Source: a virus
DNA: 32,527 bases
Virus record (IMG/VR): IMGVR_UViG_3300045125_000006
Span: 1 to 32,527 of that record
Strand: one strand, 5' to 3'
Part shown: positions 1,670 through 13,200 of the stretch, piece by piece
Numbering within the stretch: position 1 is the first letter of the stretch
How the letters are laid out: the number at the start of each line of letters is the position of its first letter
Position numbers and translations under genes: made by a program
Notes under the pieces: generated by a model
Told to the model about the DNA's origin: nothing
Seen by the model: only the letters and a program-made list of their open reading frames with translations
The model's database searches: none

Positions 1670-2844
1670 CTACCCGAACGAATATCTGCCCATCCCTGAG
1701 TTCCGAGTATATAATGATGCCAAGCTAAAGCCAAAACTCATTACGCAGTCATCGTGAAATCATCCTGGAGGTGCTGAATACCTCGACCCCTGTTGGGTGT
1801 GTGACTGATACCGAAAACCCTCCAGTTCGTTGGTAATGTGTCCTCTCCGGGAAAGTAATTTCCGCTGCTGGATGGCTGAGGAAAGTCCCTCCATTATCTG
1901 CTGCTTTTGATGTGGAACTGAATTTAAAGCCATTTATAGCCAATCCTTCCCTCTGTAAATCTTCGAAGATTGGGTCACCTACTCCTGTGCTATCTATCAA
2001 AATTGGGGCTTTAAACAGGCTTAGAATCGATTGCTTGGTTTGTCCTCCAATCCTTCTTGAAACCTATCGAAGTGGCAGACCGAGCCATTTCGGTCCAGTC
2101 CGATAATGACTGTCCAGTCTACCGCTTTGGCTAAGTCGATTCCATACACTATTGGTTGCTCTGTACTTAATCCGTATGTGCATTGCTTGATATAGGCAGA
2201 GCCGAACGGATTTGAGGAGTTTTCCGCAGGGTTAGCCATATACTCCTGCTCGAATACCACCTCAGGGGAGTTGGGTGCGTGCATCGTCTATCTCCTCTTT
2301 GCCTATGTATGGATTTGTCATAGGCAGAGAACTGGAAGGATTCCTCAACTCAGGCTCCTCCCGCTCTTTGTAGGAATAGCGAGTAAAAGAAGCTTTACCC
2401 CTTAGGGGTTGATAGGAATAAGGCTCGTCCTTTGTAGTCCGTTAAGGTAGGTCGAATTGAATTGGAGCCATCCGTCCTCAAGGTTTGGAATGAATGAAGC
2501 CTCGTCTATTACAACAAGATGGAACTTGCGACCACGAAGATTATCCAATCTCTCCCGGTAAAGAAATCAACCGAACCTCCGTTCGGAAACTTAATAGTCA
2601 ATTCTGACTTATTAGATTCAAACGGAACGGATTGAGTTAACTTCTCAAGAATACTCTTGCAAGCTGATATGTTGGCGTCACATATGCAACTGAATCTCCT
2701 TTAAGTGCAGATATGACCATTTCAATAGTAGCCAGTCTCTGACTTACCAAATCCTTCTTCCTGACATCATTACTCTGAAACGAGCCTTGCTGTCTAATAC
2801 TTTTTGCCGAGTTAATATGTGTTGCTGGTAGTTCAACTCCTCAT
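1670..2844 (-). CDS. terL: Terminase large subunit
   Basis: The packaging motor ATPase/nuclease, reconstructed to about 390 residues from several frames. N-terminal half: KARFRVMMSGRR, then FGKSQ as the arginine-rich Walker A region (about 2740..2800, broken by one indel), then ATIEMVISALKGDSVAYVTP, the Walker B strand LVVIDEASFIPNLEDGW (2464..2520) and LFLSTPKG as coupling motif. C-terminal RNase H-like nuclease: YGIDLAKAVDWTVIIGLDR (about 2100..2150), MIDSTGVGDPIFEDLQ and, near the end, SAPPGFHDDCVMSFG with its catalytic HDD. The order and residues are those of viral terminases. The start is the ATG at 2844, overlapping the TerS stop in ATGA, and needs one missing base just downstream. The stop is TAG at 1670..1672. 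Confidence 0.9.
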
Positions 2845-3203
2845 AGGATGCTTTTACCCTGCACGAATACTACTTCTATTTTAGAATCCTGAGTAACCTC
2901 TTGAACTTCTTCGGTTTACCATATACACGTGTGAGTAGTGTCTCCATCGAATATAGGCTACCATTTTTCAGAGATTTAATCATTGCGGTAGCGATAGTCA
3001 ATTCAAGGATAGTGGCTTTCGGATTCTCCAATACTGATTTAAGTTCTTCTATATCCATAGACATAAGAGCTTGGATAGCATCGTTTACCTCAGATAGCTG
3101 ATACCTTGCTCCTTGCTAGTGAAACATACTTACGAGGTCTGCCATTTGGGTTAGCTACTTCTCCTTTTTGAATTGATGCGGTATGATATCCCTTTGCAGC
3201 CAT
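2841..3203 (-). CDS. terS: Terminase small subunit (DUF5681-like)
   Basis: About 120 residues, beginning MAAKGYHTASIQKGEVANPN. The KGEVANPNGRPRKY motif is the hallmark of the DUF5681 group annotated as small terminase or packaging proteins. After an indel the helical part reads SMDIEELKSVLENPKATILE and continues through MIKSLKNGSLYSMETLLTRV, then YGKPKK. A second indel leads to the end IEVVFVQGKSIL. The stop TGA overlaps the terL start, which supports the pairing. It would recognise viral DNA and load the large subunit; this is inferred from family and position. Confidence 0.75.
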
Positions 3204-3224
3204 TGTGCTATTTCTGTGCTATTT

Positions 3225-3575
3225 TTAATCAAGTTTGTTCTTATAGTGTTCGCAGATGCGTTCCATCTCTCCTATGTAGTAGGTATTGAAGTCTGAGTAC
3301 CCTTTGTTGTCCTGCTCATAATTCCTAAATAGAACTGCTCGTAACCTTTGGCTCGGTGTTTTGGCTGAGTCTAGGTCTGATTTGAGTGAGCCGATTAGGT
3401 CGCTTTCATCCTTTGTAAATGGCTCAGGTTTTAAAGCCATATAGCAGAACTGCTGGTTAAGGTAGAACATTTTAGCAGCATCTGCTGGCCCAAGTTCCTG
3501 AGTTCCGATAGTTACTTTAATTGTTTTGTCTTTCCGGGTGGTAATGCTTTCGATTTGTGCAGGTAGTAGAATCAT
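3225..3575 (-). CDS. Conserved phage protein next to terS, unknown function
   Basis: One of the few unbroken genes (116 residues, MILLPAQIESITTRKDK to ICEHYKNKLD). It has a short beta-rich N-terminus (TIKVTIGTQELGPADAAKMF), then helices with TPSQRLRAVLFRNYEQ, and no cysteines in a metal-binding pattern. I recall similar proteins beside terminase genes in Bacteroidota phages but no known role. The ATG overlaps the stop of the methyltransferase gene in ATGA, so the two are translationally coupled, and terS starts 22 bases after its stop. Confidence 0.75.
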   Translation of the reverse strand: MILLPAQIESITTRKDKTIKVTIGTQELGPADAAKMFYLNQQFCYMALKPEPFTKDESDLIGSLKSDLDSAKTPSQRLRAVLFRNYEQDNKGYSDFNTYYIGEMERICEHYKNKLD

Positions 3576-4126
3576 TTTAGCTTAAATAGTTTGGTGTAAT
3601 TTGTAGGGTATTGTAGTGGTCTTAGATATTCATATCCTTTGGATTCAAAGAATTTTATCCATTCGTCTTGGAACTTAATGTTAACGTGTCCCCAAGCTAA
3701 ATCCCATTCTCCTGAAACATCCGAAGTAGAAGAGAATACAATATACTTTGGTTTGATTAGGTTAAATAAGCTATCAAGTTCTTTATCGTACATATGCTCT
3801 GCTACCTCAATGAAATTCATAAGGTCAGTAGTGAATACCATATTAACAAGTTCTACCTGAGTGTTCTTTCTGATATATTCACGATGCTCTTCCCATATTT
3901 CAAATGCATAAACCTTATATCCTAACCTTCGATATGCTTCTGCATAAACTCCTGTCCCTGCTCCGTAGTCTAATACTGTCTTAATTCCTAAGTCAGCTAT
4001 CTGTTCTGCGGTATGCTTACACAGATTATAGAATGCTTCGTTTTGAATATCTATACCCATTTCAAGTTCTGCTTTTAAGAACTCTGCTGGACTTATTCGC
4101 TTCGTTATGTCTATGTTAGGTTTCAT
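3572..4126 (-). CDS. SAM-dependent class I methyltransferase
   Basis: An unbroken 184-residue gene. Motif I is VLDYGAGTGVYAE near residue 50, followed by GYKVYAFEIWEEHREYI with the acidic residue that normally binds the ribose of S-adenosylmethionine. Later EVAEHM and GHVNIKFQDEWIKFFESKGY resemble the Methyltransf_23 group, which often acts on small molecules or glycans. No DNA methylase DPPY/NPPY motif is present, so a DNA base methylase is unlikely. It sits two genes after a glycosyltransferase, so joint modification of a glycan or virion surface is possible. The substrate is unknown. Confidence 0.8.
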   Translation of the reverse strand: MKPNIDITKRISPAEFLKAELEMGIDIQNEAFYNLCKHTAEQIADLGIKTVLDYGAGTGVYAEAYRRLGYKVYAFEIWEEHREYIRKNTQVELVNMVFTTDLMNFIEVAEHMYDKELDSLFNLIKPKYIVFSSTSDVSGEWDLAWGHVNIKFQDEWIKFFESKGYEYLRPLQYPTNYTKLFKLK

Positions 4127-4241
4127 CTACCTTGACCACGATAGTTGCGTTCTTCCGGTTGTGTTTATTCCTACTCTTTTGAGCCTTTCCACCTTTCCGT
4201 TTTCCGAAGCTGACTTTTGTTTGTCCTGATACCTTAGCCAT
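4127..4241 (-). CDS. Small basic protein
   Basis: Starts MAKVSGQTKVSFGKRKGGKA and continues with lysine, arginine and asparagine residues; about 37 residues. With one indel corrected it ends RNYRGQGR and a stop at 4127. Read without correction it runs on to end KVDET at 4115, inside the next gene. The composition suggests nucleic-acid binding, but no fold is recognisable. It lies six bases after the glycosyltransferase stop. Confidence 0.5.
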
Positions 4242-4247
4242 CGAATT

Positions 4248-5656
4248 TTACCCTTTAGATATTTCGTTTATTTTATCAATCACGTCCTGATTATTGTCGT
4301 AGTGTCTTGCGATTGCTAAGTCTTTAATCTTCTTAACCTTTGCACTATTTGAACCAGTTGCATAAACTCTTGACTCAGGGATTCCTAAATCCTTAGCTAC
4401 TCCGAGCATTCCTTCATTATCTCTACGAGCCGAAATTATATAAAGAGTTACTCCTTCTGAGATTAACCGTTTCGCAAGTTCTTTCCCCTTGTCCGTACTT
4501 AGAACATCGTCATAGTCTATTGATACTTTCAAAGCACCATAAGCACCGGAAGCAAGAATAGCTTGCCAAACTTCGACAGCTTTTTCTCTGGTCTCGTATT
4601 TACATCTCGAACCTATTCTCCACTTTCCGTTTGATTCACATTTTATTACTGGGTATAGACTTTCAAATAATTGTTTTCTAACTACGTTTACTTTATGGAG
4701 ATTGAAGTTTTCGTTACACCATTCGTAATTCGCTTCTCCTAACTCCTGTCTATAAATAGCATCTTCCGTGATTTTTTTAATCGCAGAGTACCATTCGGTT
4801 TGTTTATTAATCTTGATAACGTGCGGAGCATCGTCATACGGAGGTACATTAGAAACAATAACCGGTATCTTTTTACAAGCTGACTCTAAAATCTTCAGGT
4901 TGCTTTTCATTGAATTAAAAGTAGAATGAACCAAAGGAACGATAGTCGCATCTGCGTTATTGTAGAAGTTCATATACTCAGTTACCGGTAGATTGCGTTC
5001 TTACATCCCTAATTTAAGTCCGCAGGTAAAGTAGTGAATCATCTTGTGCCAAATCATCCGTGAGTATTCATTTGGGTCATCAAAGCCACACAAACGAAAA
5101 TGTACTCTTTTGATTTCAGATTAGAATCTGAAGCAACCTTCTTCAATGGGTTCTGTAAAATCTGAAGGTCTTTTTCGTGCGTTATCGAACCTGCGTAAAT
5201 GAAACGGACTTTATCCGATTCTGTTTTAACGGAAGTGAATTGGTCTTCACCATAAGGTAGAGCGTTAGGTAGAATAGCGACATTAGAATTAATATCACGA
5301 ATATATTTGCAGAGCCTTTCATTTGTTGTAGTTACAAGGTCAGCAATCTTTATGTGTTCTAATATAGCTTCAGTAGGATAAACCGACTTTAGAATGTGCC
5401 AACTATCCAAGTGCCAATAATCGTCAATGTCAATCACTAACTTAAATCCGTATCTTTCTTTGAAATCCTCTAATACTGAAATATGAATCGAAGGAATAAA
5501 ACCGATTGATATAAACAATATCCCATCCTTCTTCAAAGTTTCCTCCTGGAGTACATCAGTTATTAGAGCATAACTCTTTGGAAGGAAATGCACCGGGAGC
5601 ATCAATCTATGATACCCGACTCCAGAGTTCTTTTGAGTGATTACAAGTATTCTCAT
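4248..5656 (-). CDS. Glycosyltransferase (GT-B type) fused to a HAD-like domain
   Basis: About 470 residues in two main frames. The start is the ATG at 5656 (MRILVITQKNSGVGYHRLML), whose G-x-G-Y-x-R pattern is usual for the N-terminus of GT4-like enzymes. The acceptor half includes LVIDIDDYWHLDSWHILKSV, followed by NVAILPNALPYG and VRFIYAGSITHEKDL at the donor half. The donor half continues after a break (4974..5053) as NNADATIVPLVHSTFNSMKS and ILESACKKIPVIVSN. A short linker NGKWRIGSRCKYETREKAVE follows, then a HAD-like part VSIDYDDVLSTDKGKELAKR, TLYIISARRDN and HYDNNQDVIDKI, giving DxD and the late acidic motif. The sugar and acceptor are unknown. Its 4714..4786 segment is copied at 11763..11835. 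Confidence 0.75.
4714..4786 (-). repeat. 73-bp segment of the glycosyltransferase gene with a second copy at 11763..11835
   Basis: On the minus strand this encodes AIKKITEDAIYRQELGEANY and a few more residues. The plus-strand copy at 11763..11835 has the same length with 69 of 73 bases identical. All four differences are synonymous third positions (Thr, Leu, Tyr, Cys codons). Confidence 0.9.
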
Positions 5657-5937
5657 TTCTTTGGTCTGCCTCTTTTTAGGTTGCACATTCGGTTGTGCAG
5701 GATTCATCGCTTGATTGTATTCGTCTTGTTCTTCGCAGTATCTAATCAATCTTTCAAGCATATCGAAAACACAAGCACCGCACCAATAAGTCAAAACGAA
5801 CTGAGCATCTAAATACTTACGATAGATTCGTTCGTATTCTCCCAATACTTCAAAAGGTACATTCCGAGTGAATCCAGTTTTACCGATTCAAAGTTTATCC
5901 GATGCTGAACTAAAAAGTCAATCTCTTGCTTTGTCAT
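5653..5937 (-). CDS. Conserved phage protein with CxxC and a GRPKK end
   Basis: About 95 residues. It starts MTKQEIDFLVQHRINFESVK, and after an indel continues LGEYERIYRKYLDAQFVLTY, then WCGACVFDMLERLIRYCEEQ and a proline-rich linker. With one A removed from the AAAAA run near 5676 it ends KRGRPKK and a stop that overlaps the glycosyltransferase ATG in ATGA. The WCGAC motif may bind metal or form a disulfide. The GRPKK tail resembles an AT-hook. I recognise the family from Bacteroidota phages but know no function. Confidence 0.6.
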
Positions 5938-6200
5938 CCTCTGAAATTTGAATTGAAGTTATATAGATTCATTAGGAAATTCTTAAAGTAAGGAGCGAAC
6001 ACTCCTGAACCGAACATTGCCAAAGTTCCGTAAGTAACAAACTCAGGAAGCAAAAACAAAGCAAGTCCAGTCCAAGCCGTTAAACATAGGGGGCAATTGA
6101 ACGGGCGAAAATTAATACGCCACTTCTCAGGAAATCGGTTCTGAGTAATGAAGTAGAATGTAAATAGGTTTGCTGCTAAAATGATGCTAATCGTTTGCAT
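5934..6200 (-). CDS. Small membrane protein with a CPLC motif
   Basis: Unbroken, 88 residues. Hydrophobic segments are IILAANLFTFYFI near the start, LTAWTGLALFLLPEFV in the middle and a weaker third one at GTLAMFGSGVF. Between the first two lies RPFNCPLCLTAW, a CxxC motif facing one side of the membrane. The stop overlaps the next start in ATGA. It is not an obvious holin, and the lysis genes lie elsewhere. Unknown function. Confidence 0.65.
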   Translation of the reverse strand: MQTISIILAANLFTFYFITQNRFPEKWRINFRPFNCPLCLTAWTGLALFLLPEFVTYGTLAMFGSGVFAPYFKNFLMNLYNFNSNFRG

Positions 6201-6676
6201 TGCGTATTTTGTATTTAAGTAATAATCGAACTTTCTTAATCGTTTTCAGTAAAGACCTGTAAGGAATACCGGTATCTCTCGACACTTGTAGCAAATTACC
6301 ACACTCCGCCCAGAGCCTGAAGATTTCTTTTTCGTACCAATGAAGTATCCTCCATCGAAGTAGTTAGCCTTTCGGTTAGTGATTCATCATAAGGCTCTAC
6401 ACTTCCTAAGTCTCCGACTTCCTCGTAAACCTTCCGGAATGTACGAGCAAAGTTACTGCGGTCACTCTTAGCCATATTTACGATAGTCCGAACAACAAAG
6501 TATTTGAGATAGCCATCTTCGTACATTTTCAAAAGCCTTTCCTCATCCATTTCACAAAGGACCAGAAAGACTTCTTGCCTCAAATCATCCTGTAATTCGT
6601 AAGGCTGCATCTTACCGATAGCCTGATTGATATCCGCAGATTCGTAGAGTTCTGTTATGATTTCTGAGCGATTCAC
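6187..6676 (-). CDS. Sigma-factor-like regulator
   Basis: About 163 residues with one indel near 6330. The N-terminal part is ELQDDLRQEVFLVLCEMDEE and LKYFVVRTIVNMAKSDRSNF, resembling sigma-70 region 2 (helices ending in an R-x-I-x-N core). After the indel a region 4-like helix-turn-helix reads WYEKEIFRLWAECGNLLQVS and RDTGIPYRSLLKTIKKVRL. Such short sigma-like proteins are common in Bacteroidota phages. It is the second gene of the late arm, so a role in switching on late promoters is a fair inference. The start is GTG, overlapping the preceding stop (GTGA). Confidence 0.65.
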
Positions 6677-7176
6677 TTATCTTTTTTGATAGCCTCAAAT
6701 CTTTGAAGCATCGTTTGTGATATTTTATATTTTGTTTCTTCAGAACGTTTTGCTCCAAGTGCATTTCTTTTTCCTTTCATCTTTTCACTTATACTCTTTT
6801 TTGTATCATCGCTTCTTTTAACACCTAATGCACATTTCTTATTCTTCATTTTTTCACTTGCATTTTTCTTAAACTCATCACTTCTTATTGCACCATATCC
6901 ACCTTCTCCACCATCAGTTAGATTGCATAAGCTTCCTTTAGATAAATCTTTTCTTCCGTAAAGTTTAATGAACTCTTTTTCTTTTTCACAAGCCTGTTCG
7001 TATGTCAATTCATCTACTAAAATTTCAACTTCGTAATCTGTTTTTGAAACTATGTTTTTCCAAAATTTATTTCTTCCTGTTTTTGAAAATGCTCTTGAAT
7101 AGTATTTGTCATTACCAATACCGATATAGAAAGGTTGATTTTTGTCTAACCGAATATGTCTGTACAAATAAGCCAT
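6673..7176 (-). CDS. GIY-YIG homing endonuclease with NUMOD3-like repeats
   Basis: Unbroken, 167 residues from the ATG at 7176. A TTG four codon-like bases further upstream is less likely. The GIY-YIG nuclease core is YLYRHIRLDKNQPFYIGIG, with the arginine helix RAFSKTGRNKFWKNIV and KEFIKLYGR, and the glutamate near CEKEKEFI. After LCNLTDGGEGGYG come three repeats of the type KRSDDTKKSISEKMKGK, which match NUMOD3 DNA-binding modules. It is free-standing, first gene of the late arm, and its stop overlaps the sigma-like start. A selfish element or a nuclease against competing phages are both possible. Confidence 0.85.
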   Translation of the reverse strand: MAYLYRHIRLDKNQPFYIGIGNDKYYSRAFSKTGRNKFWKNIVSKTDYEVEILVDELTYEQACEKEKEFIKLYGRKDLSKGSLCNLTDGGEGGYGAIRSDEFKKNASEKMKNKKCALGVKRSDDTKKSISEKMKGKRNALGAKRSEETKYKISQTMLQRFEAIKKDK

Positions 7177-7186
7177 ACCCAAATAT

Positions 7187-10950: not shown

Positions 10951-11337
10951 ATGGCTAAGAGATTCACAGATACAGAGATATGGGATAAGGATTGGTTTAT
11001 GCAGCTAAATCCTAAACAAAAATGTTTAGTAAAGTACGTCAGAGATAAGTGTGACCTTGCAGGAATCTGGTCACCGAATTATAGATTGGCTTCAGTTTAT
11101 ATCGGTGATTCAGTAACCGAAGATGAACTGCTTTCGATTGATAACGGAAATCAATTTAGCAAACTCAAAGATGGGAAGATTTATTGCTCAGGATTTATTG
11201 ACTTCCAATACGGACTAACTCTTAACCCCGGTTCTCCGATTCATAAAAAGATTATGCAGATACTTGAAAAGAACGGAATTGAATACAAATCAAATAAAAC
11301 AATCAAGCCAATTAAAAATTTAAACAAACAACTATGA
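10951..11337 (+). CDS. Conserved protein of Bacteroidota phages, possibly replication related
   Basis: Unbroken, 128 residues: MAKRFTDTEIWDKDWFMQLN, then PKQKCLVKYVRDKCDLAGIW and SPNYRLASVYIGDSVTEDEL, with NGNQFSKLKDGKIYCSGFID and a lysine-rich end. I recognise this from phages and prophages of the phylum, where it sits in replication regions like the N-terminal part of DnaD-like proteins, but the role is unproven. Its stop overlaps the next start in ATGA. Confidence 0.6.
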   Translation: MAKRFTDTEIWDKDWFMQLNPKQKCLVKYVRDKCDLAGIWSPNYRLASVYIGDSVTEDELLSIDNGNQFSKLKDGKIYCSGFIDFQYGLTLNPGSPIHKKIMQILEKNGIEYKSNKTIKPIKNLNKQL

Positions 11338-11561
11338 AACAACAAACAGCAGTAGATTGGCTTTATAATATCCTTTGTGATAAAGGATACTTTAAAAAGT
11401 TACCAGTATCAGAGTTCAAAGAAGCTTTACAAATGGAGAAGGAGCAGAAAATTGAAGCCTACTTACAAGGTAGTTTTGATGACGGACCAAACCTAAGTGC
11501 AGCAGAACAATATTACAACAGAACATACGGTCAGGGAAGTAATGACACTAACACAAAATAG
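11334..11561 (+). CDS. Conserved small protein, unknown
   Basis: Unbroken, 75 residues: MKQQTAVDWLYNILCDKGYF, then KEALQMEKEQKIEAYLQGSF and a polar tail. Helix-rich, no known motif. It ends this coupled run of genes, and a hairpin follows five bases later. Confidence 0.6.
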   Translation: MKQQTAVDWLYNILCDKGYFKKLPVSEFKEALQMEKEQKIEAYLQGSFDDGPNLSAAEQYYNRTYGQGSNDTNTK

Positions 11562-11565
11562 CACA

Positions 11566-11584
11566 CTAACATAAAAAATGTTAG
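11566..11584 (+). other. 7-bp hairpin after the replication block
   Basis: CTAACAT (11566..11572), loop AAAAA, ATGTTAG (11578..11584). No T run follows, so it is a weak terminator at best. It lies between the replication genes and the next leader. Confidence 0.4.
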
Positions 11585-11592
11585 CGTAAAAA

Positions 11593-11620
11593 CCACTTAC
11601 CTACAACAAATAAAACAAGT
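11593..11620 (+). repeat. Leader repeat, first copy (partner at 13174..13200)
   Basis: CCACTT followed by ACAACAAATAAAA and, after seven extra bases, AATATG. The second copy at 13174..13200 has the same blocks without the extra bases. The two copies lie just before and after the cassette-like block. Confidence 0.55.
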
Positions 11621-11624
11621 AAAT

Positions 11625-11913
11625 ATGAAAACTTACAAGTATATAGGATTTTTCAAAAGTGCAGAAGGGCACAATTATCAATTAGAGGTTAATTGTAACG
11701 GATTTATTCAAGCGTTTTTCTCCTAACCGCTGATGCAATTAGAAGTGCAAGACATTATCAACCTGCGATTAAAAAAATCACCGAAGATGCTATTTATAGA
11801 CAGGAGTTGGGAGAAGCGAATTATGAATGGTGCAATTTAATAAAATTATAGATGAAAAAGGTAATGAAAAAATGGTTGATGACATTATTAAGTGTGGTAC
11901 TTTGTTGTCATAA
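11625..11913 (+). CDS. Conserved small protein interrupted by a glycosyltransferase fragment
   Basis: Starts MKTYKYIGFFKSAEGHNYQL, then NCNGFIQAFF and, after an indel, LLTADAIRSARHYQ. Here 11763..11835 (PAIKKITEDAIYRQELGEAN) is a piece of the glycosyltransferase gene of the late arm. The frame then returns with FNKIIDEKGNEKMVDDIIKC and GTLLS. The flanking parts read as one small phage protein of about 72 residues, DEKGN being a natural continuation of RHYQ, so the 73-base piece looks inserted. The result may be nonfunctional or a new chimera. Unknown role. Confidence 0.5.
11763..11835 (+). repeat. 73-bp copy of the glycosyltransferase segment at 4714..4786
   Basis: Inverted relative to its partner, 69 of 73 bases identical, no indel. 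Differences are C/G, G/A, T/C and C/T at third codon positions. The encoded residues are unchanged. Confidence 0.9.
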
Positions 11914-11914
11914 C

Positions 11915-12060
11915 ATTGCCACTAACGGCATCTGCTTTGCGAAGTGGCGGATTTTCAGCACGAAAGCCCAATACAAAGCACAAAAAGTTTGAATTAGTAA
12001 AAATGTTTAATCGAAGCACTTCACCCGCCATTTTGCAAAGCAAGTGTTAGCAGATAGTGC
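11915..12060. mobile_element. attC-like inverted-repeat element, copy 1
   Basis: CTAAC (11922..11926), GCTTTGC (11934..11940) and GAAGTGGCGG (11941..11950) face CCGCCATTTT (12025..12034), GCAAAGC (12035..12041) and GTTAG (12046..12050). That is an imperfect hairpin with a 74-base centre. The CTAAC...GTTAG ends with unpaired spacers resemble integron attC sites, though they do not match the canonical RYYYAAC/GTTRRRY exactly. I recall similar elements in uncultured Bacteroidota sequences. Confidence 0.5.
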
Positions 12061-12097
12061 ATTTATTCTTAAATATTAACAATTAAATTTTATAAAA

Positions 12098-12491
12098 ATG
12101 GCTTTAGAATCAAGTAAACAAAAAATTAGCAAATCTAATACAAGCGTATGAGAACGTCGTTAGAGTAGCAAGAAGCATCTATAATGATGAAGAATTAAAA
12201 GATTGGGCAATTCAACATTCTATAAAACAGGATGAGAAAATTTTAGATGTAAAAGAAAAATTGAAATCAAAATTTTCAATTGATTACAATTCTACCGATG
12301 CGAAAGCAAAAGTGATTAAAGAAGGTTCAGAGGTTGAAGTATTAGTTAATCACATGGATGGAATGAAAGGAAGCAAGGCAATTGTAAAATCATATTCTAT
12401 TCCTGCAATGCTTTCAGATATAACAATGAAAGACGGAATGAAAATGCTTAATCATAAATGGGTTACCAATGATGAAGTGAAATTAAAATAG
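12098..12491 (+). CDS. DUF1541 (YdhK-like) protein with helical N-terminus
   Basis: About 131 residues. The N-terminus MALESSKQKI, then IANLIQAYENVVRVARSIYN and KDWAIQHSIKQDEKILDVKE (indel near 12125) is helical. The C-terminal part KEGSEVEVLVNHMDGMKGSK, then KMLNHKWVTNDEVK, carries the HMxGMKGxxA and NHKWVxxxE signatures of DUF1541, a domain of cell-envelope proteins often linked to copper or other metals. No signal peptide is seen. It is not a usual phage gene, and it lies between two attC-like elements, so it looks like imported cargo. Function in infected cells is unknown. Confidence 0.6.
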
Positions 12492-12542
12492 GAGAATCAA
12501 AATGCCTTTAAATTTTTGAGTAATAACTAAATTAGTAAAGTT

Positions 12543-12608
12543 ATGGGAAAACCAAAACCAATGACAATGCCAATGAAACCAAAACCGAAGCCAAAACCTA
12601 AAAAGTAA
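12543..12608 (+). CDS. 21-residue Lys/Pro/Met-rich peptide
   Basis: Reads MGKPKPMTMPMKPKPKPKPK plus one lysine, then TAA. Composition is extreme. It follows the DUF1541 gene by about 50 bases within the same cassette. Only the strict repeat pattern supports translation. Confidence 0.3.
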   Translation: MGKPKPMTMPMKPKPKPKPKK

Positions 12609-12660
12609 CTTCTGTTTTAAAATGTAACCAGTTCTATTCGGTTCTGGCTGCATTTCTTAG

Positions 12661-12798
12661 CTAACGTAAAAGCATTGCAGAAGGCAGGGAAATTGGAATA
12701 CGTCTGCCCGATGCGGTATAGATGAAGTTTAATAGTATTCCTATTGTTGAAAGCACAACGTCAGCCCTGCTTTTGCAATGCACTGCCAGCGGCTGGCA
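12661..12798. mobile_element. attC-like inverted-repeat element, copy 2
   Basis: CTAACG (12661..12666), then GCATTGCAGAAGGCAGGG (12672..12689) facing CCCTGCTTTTGCAATGC (12765..12781) with one mismatch and one gap; the centre is 75 bases. Layout and several bases match copy 1 (CTAACG, a short spacer, GCxTTGC, GAAG; AAGCAC before the second arm). The expected GTTAG is replaced by a perfect small hairpin TGCCAGC-G-GCTGGCA (12784..12798). Nothing coding is seen in 12609..12816. Confidence 0.5.
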
Positions 12799-12816
12799 AT
12801 TGTCAAATTTTAAAAG

Positions 12817-13112
12817 ATGAAAGCAAAACAAATTATTTACAGTCGCCCCTAATATCTAAAGGCAACTACGAAAATGAAAGAATTGAAATCTGTATTGAAG
12901 TTGAAGAAGGCGAAAAAGCTCCGATGTTTACAATGCTGCAAAAGCATTTGTTGAAAAACGTGTAGCGGTTGCGAAATTGTCTGATTGCACTATTCAAAGA
13001 GCAAAGCAAGTATTGGAAAATAAACGCAACCACACCTTAGCACAAATCGAAGAAAGCGGAAGAAGTTAATATTGCAAAGTCAACGGCAAATGATGACGAA
13101 CTGCCTTTTTAG
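12817..13112 (+). CDS. Small protein with DDELPF tail
   Basis: About 96 residues with three indels: MKAKQIIYSR, LISKGNYENERIEICIEVEE, then DVYNAAKAFVEKRVAVAKLS, IQRAKQVLENKRNHTLAQIE, and the end NIAKSTANDDELPF. I recognise a conserved family of Bacteroidota phages. The acidic DDELPF end resembles SSB tails and the gene at 9426. A link to single-strand DNA handling is inferred. Unlike the DUF1541 gene it looks like a native phage gene even though it lies inside the cassette-like block. Confidence 0.55.
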
Positions 13113-13130
13113 GGTGGTTCGTCTGCTTGC

Positions 13131-13200
13131 CGCTAACTTGCGTATAGGTCTATAATCATCGGGAAGTAATGACACCACTTCCCACAACAAATAAAATATG
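13131..13200 (+). promoter_or_regulatory. Junction and leader: third CTAAC end, hairpin and leader repeat
   Basis: CGCTAACTTGCG at 13131..13142 resembles the start of the attC-like copies but has no second arm. It is followed by a perfect hairpin GGGAAGT (13161..13167) / ACTTCCC (13177..13183) and by the leader block ACAACAAATAAAA up to the ATG at 13198. The leader repeats that of the gene at 11625. Confidence 0.45.

Follow-up and report, generated by a model that had tools for sequence, protein, structure and literature searches.

Introduction

Filler DNA, or templated insertion, at repaired double-strand breaks is well described, mainly in eukaryotes. Two other kinds of system are relevant to the locus considered here. 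Virulent phages carry CALINs, which are clusters of attC sites without an integrase (Qi et al. 2023, PMC9892861), and the array of phage TJE1 is bordered by a hairpin with inverted GTTRRRY-like boxes (PMC9892861). In 85% of cases, a chimera formed by MDA is an inversion in which the sequence between the joined segments is deleted (Lasken and Stockwell 2007, PMC1855051). Here we analyze a viral DNA record of 32,527 nucleotides (IMG/VR IMGVR_UViG_3300045125_000006; hereafter the window) in which a short piece of a glycosyltransferase (GT) gene lies inverted within a small gene. The type of insertion and phage-borne cassettes are both of known kinds.

Results

In the approximately 10.8 kb of the window that is covered by at least four relatives, we counted 87 small indels (51 insertions and 36 deletions, ~8 per kb), only 19 of which lie at runs of four or more. 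The window contains six ORFs of at least 200 aa in 32.5 kb, compared with 9–13 in ~18–20 kb of its relatives. We infer that the record is probably an error-rich, uncorrected long-read assembly, and given the density of small indels the frameshifted genes in it are not to be taken as biology. The two ends of the window (positions 1 and 32525) map side by side in one relative, L009 (16420 and 16423), and the record probably represents a complete, circularly permuted phage genome. A gene with a NUMOD3 motif (6673–7182, minus strand), which probably encodes a GIY-YIG homing endonuclease, lies between phage genes.

Bases 11763–11835 of the plus strand match the minus strand of the GT gene at 69 of 73 positions, without gaps and in inverted orientation (E = 4.6e-28 within the genome), reproducing the match on which the original prediction was built (table 1). 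No other inverted or direct repeat of comparable quality was found in the whole 32.5-kb window, and in comparisons of the window with four relatives (L006, L008, L009, and L011) the GT-derived piece is the sole match that is clearly out of order. Relative to most relatives the match extends to 74 nt, as these have the corresponding C, part of a proline codon, at position 11762. Both halves of the resident GT gene match the phrog_7162 profile (E = 2e-23 and 7.5e-32), and the last part of the region (~4248–4550, minus strand) is a separate downstream domain. This 4248–4550 segment, which is joined to the GT domain in the same ORF, has a VSIDYDDVLSTDKG motif, is HAD-type phosphatase-like, and has many viral-contig relatives of its own, with matches to residues 149–240 only.

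Table 1. Positions of the inserted piece, its counterpart in the GT gene, and the cassette array in the window
Feature	Position	Strand	Remarks
Inserted GT-derived piece	11762..11835	+	74 nt; with the final CAA assigned to the target, minimal insert 11762-11832, 71 nt
Left CAA	11759..11761	+	Repeated at 11833-11835; read from sequence
Right CAA	11833..11835	+	3-nt target duplication or microhomology; TAA in 20/21 relatives and in own GT
Interrupted small cassette gene	11625..11913	+	Homologue in L003 of 71 aa; insertion after residue 46
Resident GT gene region, phrog_7162	4248..5845	-	A frameshift separates 5054-5845 from 4248-4973
GT segment matching the piece	4714..4786	-	69/73 identity
Short hairpin with two inverted GTTAG boxes	11563..11587	.	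Upstream edge of the array
Gene cassette 1	11581..12046	+	Bounded by TTAGCG in the upstream hairpin and by G in the R' box of the first attC
attC-like site, cassette 1	11918..12054	-	Bottom strand folds; R1 40.3 bits, E 7.8e-8
Cassette 2 gene, DUF1541 protein	12098..12491	+	PF07563, E 1.7e-10; homologues L096-L100; one indel near start
attC-like site, cassette 2	12657..12793	-	R1 41.4 bits, E 4.3e-8
Third cassette gene (probable, frameshifted)	12874..13112	+	From sequence

CAA flanks both ends of the insert, and the donor has (T/C)AA at the corresponding place, so microhomology explains the CAA as well as a duplication does. Base 11833 is C in the piece, but the resident GT has T there, as do 20 of 21 aligned relatives; for this reason, the C may belong to the target and not to the donor, in which case the insert would be 71 nt long with three differences. 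Judging from these junctions, the locus is best drawn, in its simplest form, as a 71-nt insert with a 3-nt CAA duplication, and an insert of 74 nt joined through a 3-nt microhomology would fit as well. Terminal inverted repeats are absent from the insert, whose ends read CCTGCGAT... and ...GAATGGTG and which is GT coding sequence throughout. We considered and rejected a transposon insertion, given insert ends without inverted repeats; antisense control of the GT gene, given that the piece lies in GT sense on the transcribed plus strand; and a CRISPR-like capture, given the wrong size and the lack of repeats.

An alignment with homologues bears out the view of a small conserved gene split by the piece: the three homologues that were found (in L003, L004, and L087) are uninterrupted and lack this segment. 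In the closest of these, encoded by the 46.7-kb phage contig L003, the protein continues unbroken for 71 residues (...ADAIRSARHYQLNKITDEKGNEK...), with CATTATCAA running directly into CTTAATAAAATT at the window's insertion point. The DNA of the window and L003 is collinear, with 86–90% identity in both flanks of the insert and with zero target bases lost. The interruption had also been described as in frame, which holds for the left junction only; the right junction is out of frame and reads LIKL-stop. A second frame break in the small gene, a one-T deletion at ~11715–11719 relative to L003, is one among the many indels in the record. The predicted fold of the L003 protein is β-β-α-β-β-α (mean pLDDT of 85), with the insertion point at the beginning of its third strand; the C-terminal third is the least conserved part of the protein among the three homologues. 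Because the right-side frame is lost and a strand of the predicted fold is cut, the insertion probably truncates the small protein and breaks the gene.

Two scans of bacterial genome contigs revealed no homologue of the cassette protein, and tblastn searches of phages and plasmids gave none. The predicted structure of the intact cassette protein (L003:6001–6213) is a small β-β-α-β fold like that of T7 Gp2 (Z of 6.7, 50 aligned, rmsd of 1.8), and it also resembles T4/RB69 Dmd (Z of 5.8). A host-takeover role for this protein is only a lead from the structure prediction, the Z scores being within the range of a common arrangement.

The four mismatches between the piece and the resident GT (11782, 11809, 11824, and 11833) each fall at a synonymous third position in the GT frame, in agreement with the original prediction, which took this pattern to mean that the donor was probably the GT gene of a related phage or that the piece stayed under selection. 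When the differences are polarized against the relatives, the change at 11782 falls to the resident GT rather than to the piece, that at 11824 falls to the piece, and site 11809 is not polarized, perhaps also having changed in the piece. By this polarization, only one or two of the differences (11824, perhaps also 11809) would surely have arisen in the piece. The probability that a random change in this stretch is silent is 0.18–0.26 for one change, and the probability that two are both silent is 0.03–0.07. The argument from silent changes is therefore weakened; a related-phage donor is plausible, and no sequence containing the exact piece was found by exact search of viral contigs, a collection that may leave out near-identical records. 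Selection on the piece finds no support, as its frame is shifted and half of the predicted sheet is removed. The all-silent pattern speaks less for a foreign donor than it does against random errors of sequencing, in that differences that are all silent in a 69/73 match make sequencing noise in one copied molecule an unlikely source. The sequence GACAGGAGTTRGG is common to the piece and the resident GT and is absent from all 21 aligned relatives, and on this basis we assign the donor to the window phage's own branch.

Described previously as an early gene, the interrupted gene is, by its surrounding features, an integron-type gene cassette, a setting that the original prediction missed; the phage appears to carry two or three such cassettes. 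Given that a simple box-and-arm score was borderline for a single window site (reached by 7 of 100 shuffles), we built a covariance model, R1, solely from the six attC-like sites of L003, a phage contig unrelated to the window. R1 finds two attC-like sites in the window, with the next match at 13.5 bits, and no such sites in five sister phages. Both window sites have R''/R' boxes, paired arms, and a bottom-strand hairpin; they are co-oriented, and each is accompanied by one small ORF on the plus strand, the gene beginning at 11625 and the DUF1541 gene, respectively. The DUF1541 gene is followed by a short Pro/Lys-rich ORF at ~12543. Farther downstream, an R''-like box (CCGCTAAC) at ~13131 has no partner box, and a hand-joined reading of the third cassette gene has no Pfam match. 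An Rfam search of the cassette region likewise gave no match.

The same cassettes are found in otherwise unrelated genomes. In the 12.2-kb piece of L003 that we examined, similarity to the window is confined to the cassette gene, and the L003 array (2944–6348) consists of six attC-like sites on one strand with small ORFs between them, including one for an N6/N4 DNA methylase. In L096, L097, and L099, R1 also places an attC-like site immediately upstream of the DUF1541 cassette homologue. These three homologues lie at ~2754–3390, and those of L097 and L099 are followed, like the window gene, by a short Pro/Lys-rich ORF. The window segment ~11271–13196 replaces the second half of a sister-phage gene. 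A tyrosine integrase (PF00589) was not matched in the window or in the L003 record, with positive controls detected, and the tyrosine recombinases in the L096 and L099 records score far below the integron-integrase cut-off.

Discussion

On balance, we think it probable that the locus records a real illegitimate insertion, in vivo, of GT DNA from the phage itself or a close relative. Such an insertion is most likely recent, inactivating, and homology-free, and located in a phage-borne cassette. In the mechanism that we propose, a short GT-gene fragment of the phage's own kind would have been pasted, inverted, into the coding region of the cassette. A staggered double-strand break may have taken up the fragment, with fill-in of its 3-nt ends leaving CAA on both sides, or the fragment may have been copied when synthesis moved briefly to the GT gene as template and then returned; either way, the event would have needed at most three bases of homology. 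As the insertion would enter in frame and exit out of frame, the small protein would be truncated. We infer the in vivo event, the donor (a close relative or an earlier resident GT allele), and the break-repair route from the arrangement described above.

The insertion is seen in one genome only and may thus represent a minor variant or else a chimera. A chimera would have arisen in the laboratory or during assembly, through an amplification template switch or a faulty low-coverage long-read consensus that introduced the GT fragment of a co-occurring strain. The error-rich state of the record is in keeping with this origin, as are the inverted orientation and the partner within 10 kb, which are typical of MDA chimeras, and neither junction was found in a second record by exact search of viral contigs, from which near-identical records may be left out. 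We nevertheless judge a chimera, the main rival reading, to be unlikely, if worth serious consideration, because it requires two jumps 71–74 nt apart with a return to exactly the same base, as well as a second template allele, the four silent differences not being random errors, and no other patch of this kind occurs in 32.5 kb. A precise return to the same base is what a single insertion event predicts, unlike one MDA template jump.

The donor could also have been the resident GT of the same genome, copied at an earlier time, with the two copies having diverged since. The window's own GT is the closest known sequence to the piece (94.5% identity, compared with 89% for the best relative), and at the position paired with 11782 it is this GT that has the derived base. 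A dead copy, however, would not be expected to collect silent changes only; chance can account for one or two of them in the piece but not for three or four, so that we consider this origin distinctly improbable. We give very little credence to the proposal that selection keeps the new C-terminus (PAIKKITEDAIYRQELGEANYEWCNLIKL) of the small protein: although the piece is entered in frame and keeps the donor reading frame open, and the replaced C-terminal third is the part that varies most among the homologues, the insertion takes the place of strands 3 and 4 and the terminal helix in a confidently predicted 71-residue fold, a second frame break lies upstream, and no relative has a retained fusion. 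Scarcely more than a speculation is the broader idea that phage-borne cassettes illegitimately capture gene scraps of co-infecting phages and so provide a site for new fused proteins, of which the window would present a fresh example, prior to decay.

If the insertion is real, as we favor, it provides a clean, base-level view of a homology-free insertion between phage genes in which the donor gene, the junctions, and the target are all identifiable; in this group, age generally obscures such events. With the cassette array, the short list of phage families in which integron cassettes are known gains a further entry, and the same small cassette gene is present in two unrelated phages. Error-rich records can contain unverified patches of this kind.

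The insertion resembles filler DNA and the illegitimate recombination of phage mosaicism in that a short distant piece is joined with at most 3 nt of homology and a small duplication, leaving the target otherwise intact. It differs from filler DNA in that it would have occurred in a phage, with the homologous gene of a close strain as the probable donor. Inverted MDA chimeras (PMC1855051) share with it the inverted orientation and a partner less than 10 kb away; in contrast to these, the window has two junctions that lead back to the same base and no deletion, and both sides continue the original sequence. The cassette array is similar to phage CALINs (PMC9892861) in having at least two co-oriented attC-like sites, small ORFs between them, and no tyrosine integrase, and to the TJE1 CALIN in particular in that inverted GTT boxes form a hairpin at the array edge (PMC9892861). 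Unlike the described phage CALINs (PMC9892861), this putative CALIN belongs to a phage family without a match in the phage records searched, and consists of different cassettes, one of whose genes carries a GT insertion.
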